Below, piece by piece: positions 37,402 to 63,188 of a DNA stretch of 64,000 bases; position 1 is the stretch's first letter; each line of letters starts with the position of its first letter. Below the pieces are notes generated by a model. The model saw only the letters and a list, made by a program, of their open reading frames with translations, made no database searches and had not been told where the DNA came from. Origin of the DNA: Salinimonas profundi (GTDB lineage Bacteria > Pseudomonadota > Gammaproteobacteria > Enterobacterales > Alteromonadaceae); NCBI RefSeq assembly GCF_014750655.1, contig NZ_JABBXD010000002.1, positions 421,636 through 485,635 of the forward strand. Reading direction: 5' to 3'. Both the position numbers and the translations under genes were made by a program.

Positions 37402-38832
37402 ATGCAAAAGAACGTTAACCACTATTCCCCAGGATGTAGCAGACGTATCGAGGTCGGGTGTGTGCGTTATGTCATCGTCTTGCTCTGGTTACTGGTACTA
37501 ATCAGTTGCCAGCCTGTCTCTACCCGTTCGTCACTGGAAAAAGTTGTCGACGATGGTGTACTGAAAATCGGCACCATGTTTGGCCGAACCACCTTTTATC
37601 ACGGTAGCGAGGCGCCGCGCGGTTTTGAGTTTGAGCTGGCCAAAGGCTTTGCCAGTTATCTTGACGTTGAAGTTCAGATTTACCCTTTTTATTCCTATCA
37701 GGCCCTGATGAAGGAGCTTGAACAAGGTCGGATTGATGTGGTCGCCGCCGGCGATGCGGTTCCTAAAGACTTTGGCAAACAGTTCAAGCTCGGTCCGGTT
37801 TACCAGCAGGTGAGCCACAAGCTGGTCTTTTTGCAGGGCCAGCAGCGGCCGCGCGATATTGATGATCTCACCCAGCCTTTGGTCGTGGTTAAGGGCAGCA
37901 GTAATGAGCACTTACTTGAACAACTCAAAGATTCACATCCAGGGCTTAACTGGAAAGCGACAGACAATAAGGATACGTGGGAGCTGTTAGATGATGTTGC
38001 CAATGGACGCCTGCCCTACACGCTGGTCGACACGAATACGTTGTCGCTTCAGCGCCGGCAGTATCCTCAACTTAGCATTGGATTTACCGTAGAACGTCTG
38101 GTGCCCATCGCATGGTTACTTAATCAGCAGCAGGATGATTCGCTACGGGCGGCTGTGATCGAATATTTCGGCACCATTCATCAGTCCGGTGTATTTAAAG
38201 CGCTTGAAGATAAATACTTTGGCCATGTCAGAGACTTCAACTACGTCGACACAAAAGTATTTTTACAGGCTGCCAGGCTAAAGCTGCCAGATTATGCACA
38301 TTGGTTTAAACAATATGCATCGGATGTTGACTGGCGTCTGCTTGCCGCCATGAGTTATCAGGAAAGTCACTGGAAACCTGATGCCACTTCCTATACCGGC
38401 GTCCGGGGCCTGATGATGCTGACCCGGGATACGGCCCGTGAGCTGAACATTGATTCGCGCACTGATGCCCAGAGCAGTATTAAAGGGGGTGCACAATACG
38501 TAAGTAACCTGTTGGCGCGAATCCCTGCGCGCATACGGCGTCCTGATCGCCTTTGGATGGCTCTGGCTGCCTACAACATCGGCATGGGGCATTTAGAAGA
38601 TGCGCGCACGCTGACCCAGCGCCAGGGCGGCAATCCGGACTTGTGGGTCGATGTAAAGCGTCGTCTTCCGCAACTGGAGCAAAAACGCTACTACAAAACC
38701 ACGCGCTATGGCTTCGCCCGCGGACATGAGGCACGCCAGTATGTAGAAAACATCCGGCGTTATTATGACTCGTTGATTTACCTTGACGAAAATACCCGCT
38801 TTTTGAGTGCCCAGGCCGCGCCGTCCTCTTGA
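37402..38832 (+). CDS. mltF: Membrane-bound lytic murein transglycosylase F
   Basis: A 476-residue MltF: a solute-binding-protein-like regulatory domain (about residues 50-275, with GVLKIGTMFGRTTFYHG) followed by an SLT catalytic domain (about 300-440). The catalytic Glu is E321 in AMSYQESHWKP, followed by YTGVRGLMMLTRDTA and WMALAAYNIGMGHL. It cuts peptidoglycan glycan strands from the periplasmic side of the outer membrane. A GTG at 37462 with GAGG 8 bases upstream would give a short lipoprotein signal ending LISC, and is a good alternative start, since no ribosome binding site precedes the first ATG. Confidence 0.95.
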   Translation: MQKNVNHYSPGCSRRIEVGCVRYVIVLLWLLVLISCQPVSTRSSLEKVVDDGVLKIGTMFGRTTFYHGSEAPRGFEFELAKGFASYLDVEVQIYPFYSYQALMKELEQGRIDVVAAGDAVPKDFGKQFKLGPVYQQVSHKLVFLQGQQRPRDIDDLTQPLVVVKGSSNEHLLEQLKDSHPGLNWKATDNKDTWELLDDVANGRLPYTLVDTNTLSLQRRQYPQLSIGFTVERLVPIAWLLNQQQDDSLRAAVIEYFGTIHQSGVFKALEDKYFGHVRDFNYVDTKVFLQAARLKLPDYAHWFKQYASDVDWRLLAAMSYQESHWKPDATSYTGVRGLMMLTRDTARELNIDSRTDAQSSIKGGAQYVSNLLARIPARIRRPDRLWMALAAYNIGMGHLEDARTLTQRQGGNPDLWVDVKRRLPQLEQKRYYKTTRYGFARGHEARQYVENIRRYYDSLIYLDENTRFLSAQAAPSS

Positions 38833-38960
38833 AATACTGTCATATTGCCTTCATTTAGGTATGGCAGGATTAGTGCATTAATTTAGCTACTGATATCCAA
38901 CTGCACCCTAGAAGTGATCCACTAACCTGCTAAAACACATTAAAAACATCAGGAGAGTGA

Positions 38961-39119
38961 ATGAAAAGAAACAACTTTATGAAGAATCGAAGAACATTGA
39001 AAAACAACAACCACCGCAGGCTTATGTTTAAGCGGTCTCATCAAAAAATGCTGCAACGCCGCCGCCTGTTCGTAACCAGCGATCTTATCTCTACGCTTAA
39101 ACCGGTGGCTAACCTTTAA
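38961..39119 (+). CDS. Small strongly basic protein of 52 residues, unknown
   Basis: A short ORF with an excellent ribosome binding site (AGGAGAG, 3 to 4 bases before ATG). It begins MKRNNFMKNRRTLKNNNHRR, and about a third of its residues are Lys, Arg or His, with no acidic residue except one Asp near the end. There is no signal peptide or membrane segment. Such a composition would suit binding to RNA, DNA or the ribosome, but I recognise no family. It lies between mltF and tadA and its last 11 bases overlap the convergent tadA stop. The ribosome modulation factor RMF has similar size and charge but does not match in sequence. Confidence 0.6.
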   Translation: MKRNNFMKNRRTLKNNNHRRLMFKRSHQKMLQRRRLFVTSDLISTLKPVANL

Positions 39120-39651
39120 GTTTTGCCGCTGCTCTGGCCGCCTTTATCTGAGCTCTGCGCTGAGCAAAAAAAGATGATACCGTTTGTGCGCATTCAGCCT
39201 CCAGGACACCGCCGGTAATCTGGCACTGATGATTCAGCCTATCGTGTTGCAAAAGTTGCATGGCAGAGCCGCCAGCACCGGTCTTTAGATCATAAGCACC
39301 AAACACCACACGTTTGAGCCTGCCATGCACAATCGCCCCTGCACACATCGGGCAGGGTTCTAATGTTGCGTACAAAGTAGCATCCACCAACCGATAGTTA
39401 GCAAGGTTGAGCGCCGCCATCTGAATAGCGCGCATTTCAGCGTGCGCACTGGGATCATTATCCTGGATGGGCGAATTAAACCCTTCACCAATAATCTGGT
39501 CATCTTTCACGATGACCGCACCTACAGGCACCTCGTTGATAGCTCGCGCTTTTTCGGCAAGCGTCAGTGCATAGCGCATCCACTTCTCATCTTCGGCGGT
39601 GCTGATTTTACTATCTGGTGAATTTGACGAATTGATAGTCTGGTTACTCAT
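39109..39651 (-). CDS. tadA: tRNA-specific adenosine deaminase TadA
   Basis: A 180-residue TadA that converts A34 to inosine in tRNA-Arg(ACG). The zinc site is His70 and the catalytic proton shuttle Glu72 in SAHAEMRAI, with PCPMC at residues 99-103. The N-terminal 20 residues (Ser/Asn-rich) extend beyond the usual start, and the C-terminal tail is Ala/Lys-rich. The adjacent mltF and nearby purL give the normal gene order for gammaproteobacteria. The window's tRNA-Arg has anticodon CCT and is not the substrate. Confidence 0.96.
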   Translation of the reverse strand: MSNQTINSSNSPDSKISTAEDEKWMRYALTLAEKARAINEVPVGAVIVKDDQIIGEGFNSPIQDNDPSAHAEMRAIQMAALNLANYRLVDATLYATLEPCPMCAGAIVHGRLKRVVFGAYDLKTGAGGSAMQLLQHDRLNHQCQITGGVLEAECAQTVSSFFAQRRAQIKAARAAAKLKG

Positions 39652-39838: not shown

Positions 39839-40075
39839 ATGAATTTAACCGCCATCATTATAGTCGCAATCATCGCCACGACAATTATAAAACTGACGAA
39901 GACGGGCGAAAAGTCATCTGGAAAAAATGCTGAGCTAAAGAATGCACTTGGTGCACAGGCACGCGAGATAGCCGAACTGAAAACACGTATTCAAACCCTT
40001 GAAGCTATTGTCACCGATGAAGGCTACGATCTGAAAAAGAAATTTAAAGATCTAGAAGACGATAAAGTCGCATAG
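39839..40075 (+). CDS. PspB-like small membrane protein with coiled coil
   Basis: A 78-residue protein with one N-terminal membrane helix (LTAIIIVAIIATTII, residues 3-17), a short basic loop, and a coiled coil from about residue 33 to 75. The segment ELKTRIQTLEAIVTDEGYDL resembles the C-terminal part of phage shock protein PspB (RIQALESIL). No pspA or pspC is near, so the match is to the architecture and one motif only. AGGAG lies 8 bases before the ATG. It converges with the antiporter gene with a 16-base gap. Confidence 0.75.
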   Translation: MNLTAIIIVAIIATTIIKLTKTGEKSSGKNAELKNALGAQAREIAELKTRIQTLEAIVTDEGYDLKKKFKDLEDDKVA

Positions 40076-62857: not shown

Positions 62858-62909
62858 GGGGTTAGGCCTCCATACACCCCTTGTATCGATCCAGCGAACT
62901 GGACACCCC
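62858..62909 (-). promoter_or_regulatory. Structured rpsB leader, probable S2 autoregulation site
   Basis: On the minus strand the leader reads GGGGTGTCC, a CCAG/CTGG hairpin, then GGGGTGTATGGAGG followed by CCTAACCCC. The first GGGG can pair with the final CCCC, next to a hairpin, giving a pseudoknot-like fold just before the ribosome binding site GAGGAA. Gammaproteobacterial rpsB leaders carry a conserved structure through which S2 represses its own operon; I match this by pattern and position only. Confidence 0.55.
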
Positions 62910-63188
62910 GATATCAAGTGTCGGTATATGTGTGTTATTAATTAAGATTCGTACCTGAAGCAGCCACACAAGTTCAATTTTTACCCGGGCAGTGAAACAG
63001 GCGGGCGCTTTATACCATGCCTGAGACATCAGCTCAAGAAAAAGGTGCGTTTTACGTGCCGTCTGACAGCGCCCTAACTATACAGCGCAGCCCTTAATCG
63101 TTAATATAGGCAGACTTTACGCTTGATAATGGCAGTGGCCGTTCATATCTGGCTATTCATTATGACTAACGACTGATCGGGGATTCTG
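62910..63188. other. Intergenic region between rpsB and map
   Basis: About 280 bases shared by two divergent genes. It should hold both promoters. A weak sigma-70 candidate for rpsB is TTGAAC, 18 bases, TACGAA on the minus strand (about 62950-62980). No small ORF or RNA gene is evident. Confidence 0.4.

Follow-up and report, generated by a model that had tools for sequence, protein, structure and literature searches.

Does the short open reading frame (ORF) lying between mltF and tadA in Salinimonas profundi encode a protein, and if so, what might this protein do? The ORF is part of a 64,000-nucleotide stretch of contig NZ_JABBXD010000002.1, hereafter the window. The features of the region are as follows.

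37402 to 38832, plus strand: mltF, encoding SLT and SBP_bac_3 domains; the constant upstream neighbour by synteny
38951 to 38957, plus strand: Shine-Dalgarno sequence AGGAGAG, read directly from the sequence
38961 to 39119, plus strand: ORF of the basic protein, 52 residues, ATG at 38961, stop codon ending at 39119
39012 to 39071, plus strand: codons of the conserved core (residues 18 to 37, HRRLMFKRSHQKMLQRRRLF), from the gapless placement of 127 members
39109 to 39651, minus strand: tadA, encoding a Deaminase domain; convergent, overlapping the ORF by 11 nt

The first-pass annotation had described a very basic protein of 52 residues, preceded by AGGAGAG and overlapping tadA on the other strand. 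Coordinates, frame, length and ribosome binding site are all correct, and the overlap is real, though restricted to positions 39109-39119. The AGGAG stretch (38951-38955) ends five bases ahead of the ATG, and 128 nt separate the end of mltF from the ORF. The protein contains 6 Lys, 9 Arg and 2 His residues (K+R 15/52) and one acidic residue. K+R+H contents of at least 30% are found in 5 of the 285 window ORFs of 40-80 residues, only one of which, the 38961-39119 ORF, also carries a Shine-Dalgarno-like sequence. A 55-residue frame on the minus strand (40284-40117) is more basic (42% K+R+H); it overlaps, out of frame, a long gene of the same strand, lacks a Shine-Dalgarno sequence and is probably spurious. 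Basicness alone therefore proves nothing.

Conservation of the ORF

Matches to the protein were obtained by tblastn (E value of 8e-4 or better) in 36/36 genomes of the genus, S. profundi included, and each genome carries an intact ORF with the core, four of the ORFs being short forms of 37 residues. Among the named relatives are Salinimonas chungwhensis (82%) and numerous Alteromonas. Among 30 full-length members from the genus (435 pairs), mean pS and pN are 0.75 and 0.23, respectively; in 15 disjoint pairs of genus members the values are 0.57 and 0.13, corresponding to a pN/pS ratio of about 0.23. The ORF is under purifying selection. Differences number 5937, 4570 and 10990 at the three codon positions. 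Within two sets of closely related genomes, the gap between mltF and the ORF is poorly conserved, except for the bases directly preceding the ATG. Because the ORF is conserved throughout the genus, shows a low pN/pS ratio and keeps a constant place after mltF, it is more than a chance ORF and almost certainly a genuine, overlooked gene, as the first-pass annotation had proposed.

Conservation might instead reflect the overlap with tadA, a terminator serving the minus strand or another DNA or RNA element. Within the ORF (39065-39053), one weak hairpin resembling a minus-strand terminator was detected, versus 0.8 expected. The distribution of differences among codon positions and the pN/pS ratio argue against an element of this type, as does the position of the core, which is located outside tadA in all 118 loci featuring a convergent tadA; ORF and tadA overlap in 62 of these loci and do not in 56. 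For this count, a regular expression delimited the core, and non-matching loci were taken as not reaching tadA. No Rfam family reaches the gathering score there. A chance ORF is likewise opposed by the codon pattern and the location of the core, and conservation without a protein is scarcely credible. Neither of the two findings that the first-pass annotation had named as adverse, absence of the frame from close relatives and conservation due solely to the tadA overlap, was thus encountered.

Distribution and genomic context

Outside the genus, tblastn matched 9 of 24 other genomes of the order (E values of 0.003 to 1), and in the two that were inspected (G043 and G054) the match falls between mltF and tadA. 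A 27-member profile matches 54/394 genomes of the order and 78/196 genomes of the family (E value up to 0.01). Two further profiles were built from sequences that we selected: A2, a wider one, from 57 of 104 distinct members, and A5 from 66 of 77 non-redundant cores. A2 matches 131/394 genomes of the order, Vibrionaceae among them, a few of the matches being due to chance; those above an E value of 0.002 (11/131) are doubtful, as four of five inspected (L277-L280, versus L091) are not beside mltF. One matched family (f21) is taken as Vibrionaceae because Qrr sRNAs were found in 5/7 of its genomes and in 0/7 genomes of other families tested; the Qrr-bearing genomes have a member of the small-protein family at the tadA/mltF place. 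In a sample of the class, 9/369 genomes matched: three belong to the family of S. profundi, and six fall outside the order and have neither mltF nor tadA near the match. In 30 genomes, each from a different genus, the region after tadA was also inspected by position. A small basic ORF scored by the profile is present in 11, nine of which had been missed by the first profile, and 19/30 genomes have no such ORF.

Gene order was compared in 121 locus records (112 distinct places). These are L001-L125 minus L039 (E. coli), L088, which has neither mltF nor tadA nearby and was taken as a chance match, and L035 and L097, in which the script found no start; nine records duplicate the same place. L087, which has no plausible start, was removed from the composition, Arg-codon and tadA-overlap counts. 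In 115/121 records mltF is located upstream on the same strand, and in 113 tadA is also found downstream in convergent orientation; the other eight records have one of the two genes within the DNA examined. Of 20 further A2 matches that we picked, which were mostly weak, 16 lie downstream of mltF, and 10 of these 16 also have tadA; the four not beside mltF are L277-L280. The ORF follows mltF, and tadA is absent from the DNA examined, in six loci (L265, L266, L267, L269 and L272, which belong to one other family, and L275). In the genome of L275, tadA maps about 1.7 kb away, and the convergent genes next to the ORF in L272 were recognised by eye as a zinc-ribbon ORF and one for a Der-like GTPase.

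The steady neighbour of the ORF is mltF, not tadA, and a link to tadA is unsupported. The position between mltF and tadA given by the first-pass annotation thus holds for mltF and fails for tadA in the six loci. The same-place search that it had suggested shows that the frame is kept beside mltF in the genus and in other families of the order. Many bacteria of the GTDB order to which Alteromonas and Vibrio belong maintain an unnamed family of small proteins, encoded directly after mltF. Mobile origin was considered and rejected, the window protein having no tblastn match in plasmid and phage collections. Beyond tadA, a plus-strand ORF of 78 residues (39839-40075) combines a hydrophobic N-terminus with a charged, coiled-coil-like part and is weakly similar to PspB (E value of 0.0067, below the cut-off).

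So steady a neighbour would be explained if the product cooperated with MltF or the envelope, its basic helix acting alongside the lytic transglycosylase or at the membrane. The 115/121 and 16/20 counts agree with such a role, and the association persists even when tadA is not next to the ORF. The position, however, is also explained by gene order simply being inherited; the proteins have charged starts and, by eye, neither a signal peptide nor a membrane stretch is obvious; and E. coli K-12 has no such gene although it has mltF, which there overlaps tadA by 4 nt. We regard a role with MltF as improbable.

The core and its likeness to bS22

The core approximates the consensus RR[RK]xxLKxxHxK[VI]LxRR[RK]xF. 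A gapless placement on 23 columns accommodates all 127 member sequences, the window row being NHRRLMFKRSHQKMLQRRRLFVT; as the placement was built on the members themselves, using it to test membership is circular. Weighted column conservation is 100% at R33, 96% at R19, 93% at F/Y37, 88% at K/R29 and 61% at H27. Outside a few columns, the family evolves fast. Members range from 37 to 63 residues as called (median 50), and K+R content from 21 to 39% (median 30%, 104 members). The C-termini end in Ala-Ser or Ala-Cys in 28/118 loci (14 each), often as EAC, EAS or QAS (L046, L071 and L072, for instance).

The AlphaFold2 (AF2) model, obtained from 20 sequences, predicts one long helix spanning residues 16-50 and a short turn at residues 9-12, with a mean pLDDT of 76.5, a pTM of 0.45 and the best values at residues 21-40. 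The model agrees with the single short helix of bS22 and mS38, an unspecific feature. No PDB entry was matched by the model in Foldseek, and no PDB sequence matched the family profiles at E values up to 10. Searches of 57 members against Pfam, NCBIfam and PHROGs returned scattered weak matches only (best E value of 0.011), none convincing. The protein is hence unrecognised, as had been annotated.

Because one of the 57 members touched NF047430, the model of ribosomal protein bS22, at an E value of 0.035, the family was compared with bS22. bS22 is described as occupying the h27/h44/h45 pocket of 16S rRNA in the form of a short basic helix (PMC10618245, PMC10085706), and 55-65% of the residues of bS22 and eL41 are reported as positive (PMC10085706), a range that the family does not reach. 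For each of the models PF08213 and NF047430, 0/40 genomes exceeded the cut-off, and neither matched any of ten diverse members.

In hhalign, the alignment of actinobacterial bS22 is matched with probabilities of 43% (A2) and 76% (A5) in the same gapless register, and 0/300 column shuffles equalled the real score with either profile. A joint alignment of actinobacterial bS22 and mS38 gave 14% with A2 (2/300 shuffles) and 41% with A5 (0/300). Of 16 single references, Mycobacterium (Msm) bS22 scored 19-20, and the other 15 scored 12 or less. Taken singly, human mS38 and the Flavobacterium (Fjo) and Borrelia (Bbu) bS22s remain at shuffle level, mS38 being matched only jointly with bS22. For two actinobacterial bS22s, a position-specific matrix of the core gave p values of 0.0005-0.0025; bL34 reached about 0.03, and 11 other references exceeded 0.05. 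Two earlier, weaker tests were carried out. In the first, the members at p < 0.01 among 104 numbered 45 for Msm bS22, 13 for bL34, 3 each for Fjo bS22 and Sra, 1 for Bbu bS22 and 0 for five other references; the second gave p values of 0.006-0.027 for two actinobacterial bS22s.

Other basic ribosomal proteins scored lower. bL20 beat 50/50 shuffles with A5 and 48/50 with A2, and bL34 beat 47/50 with either profile, with scores of 10-12 versus 19-20 for bS22. An identity with bL34 was rejected, as hhalign probabilities are 1.3-3.0% and a separate bL34 is encoded elsewhere in 40/40 genomes of the genus. No similarity was found to Sra, the stationary-phase ribosome-associated protein of E. coli, whose hhalign score was reached by 43-44/50 shuffles. 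The family thus resembles actinobacterial bS22, and neither mS38 nor non-actinobacterial bS22s, beyond what composition explains. Since bS22 is one of 14-16 references tried, some selection is involved in this result. No account of bS22 in Gammaproteobacteria, or of small proteins at mltF/tadA in Alteromonas, was found in the literature searched.

A toxin-like or antimicrobial-like peptide would share the basic helical build, and one study reports that purified Cutibacterium acnes bS22 inhibits growth and cell-free translation (PMC10085706). The gene, on the other hand, occupies one fixed place in all genomes of the genus and has no partner gene, the window protein has no match in the plasmid and phage collections, and the family searches with 57 members gave nothing convincing. 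Such an activity is very improbable.

Expression and possible role

Within the genus, Arg codons of family members are AGA (32%), CGC (31%) and CGT (23%), versus CGT (59%), CGC (31%) and AGA (10%) in bL34 genes from 30 loci. AGA accounts for 13% of Arg codons in 39 long genes of the window, and CGT for 9/11 (82%) in an rpsB-like gene. Codon usage therefore argues against output at the level of core ribosomal proteins. A t44 RNA (RF00127, 75 bits) maps to the minus strand at 62861-62952, just upstream of the rpsB-like gene.

In Vibrio cholerae, VC_0864 is tadA and VC_0866 is mltF (PMC12588516, PMC8820737). VC0865 is probably a member of the family, judging by locus position. The mRNA of VC0865, listed as a hypothetical protein, is reported to decrease 3.4-fold upon expression of the sRNA VqmR; in E. 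coli, VqmR represses a GFP reporter fused to the 5'UTR and the initial 20 codons, and does so more weakly when domain R2 is missing (PMC6451090). No function of VC0865 was found in the literature searched. A table of AphA binding sites lists one at VC0864, which adjoins VC0865 (PMC6855506), and AphA is itself given as a VqmR target (PMC6451090).

We infer that the small protein probably binds RNA or the ribosome. The nucleic-acid or ribosome binding proposed by the first-pass annotation is plausible and favoured by the composition-controlled likeness to bS22. According to the best reading, to which we assign a probability of roughly 0.4, the product would be an accessory protein that binds RNA or the 30S subunit and works like bS22. 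The core would fold into one basic helix that binds structured RNA; the most likely target would be 16S rRNA in the small subunit, contacted as bS22 contacts it, in the h27/h44/h45 pocket. The protein might be a conditional or sub-stoichiometric accessory, steadying h44 or the subunit interface. That it occupies the bS22 site itself is possible, at somewhat less than even odds. Curated models fail, no PDB entry matches and the charge is about half that of bS22; the protein may act like bS22, yet is not filed as bS22.

A broader proposal is more tentative: a lineage-specific small-subunit protein, so far unrecognised, may sit at the bS22/mS38/eL41 site in Gammaproteobacteria, namely Alteromonadaceae, Vibrionaceae and further families of their order. 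The ribosomes of these bacteria would then differ from that of E. coli at h44 of the decoding centre, and the dose in Vibrio would be set by a quorum-sensing sRNA. An equally tentative alternative is an RNA-binding regulator unrelated to bS22, in which an Arg-rich helix would contact mRNA, tRNA or another rRNA site under growth-phase or stress control, its likeness to bS22 being the convergence of basic helices. Fast evolution outside a few columns, Arg codons unlike those of highly expressed ribosomal proteins, sRNA control of the probable Vibrio member and the lack of matches to mS38 and non-actinobacterial bS22s taken singly are all consistent with a regulator. Convergence sits less well with the hhalign scores, which set bS22 apart from 15 other references and were equalled by no shuffle.

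Should the bS22 site be bound, many marine bacteria and Vibrio would have a ribosome component absent from E. coli, and tiny h44 proteins would be commoner among bacteria than is apparent from the structures to date. Even otherwise, this is a conserved family with no curated model in the libraries searched, and its fixed position and short core make it easy to delete, to tag and to seek in ribosomes.

Among known systems, bL34 is about as short (roughly 45 residues), very basic and weakly matched (hhalign 1-3%), but its N-terminus is missing from the family. For the Flavobacterium and Borrelia bS22s and eL41, a small basic helix in the 30S pocket of bS22 has likewise been reported, yet these proteins share no sequence likeness with the family beyond composition. 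V. cholerae VC0865, by the order of locus tags, lies between tadA and mltF as family members do. Most likely the nearest known analogue is bS22. The family scores under the curated cut-offs of actinobacterial bS22 (COX24_C, PF08213; NF047430), has about half its charge density, is longer and carries at column 37 an aromatic residue not found in bS22, but the two share a short basic helix and the register RR[RK]xM....H.K.L.R.R.
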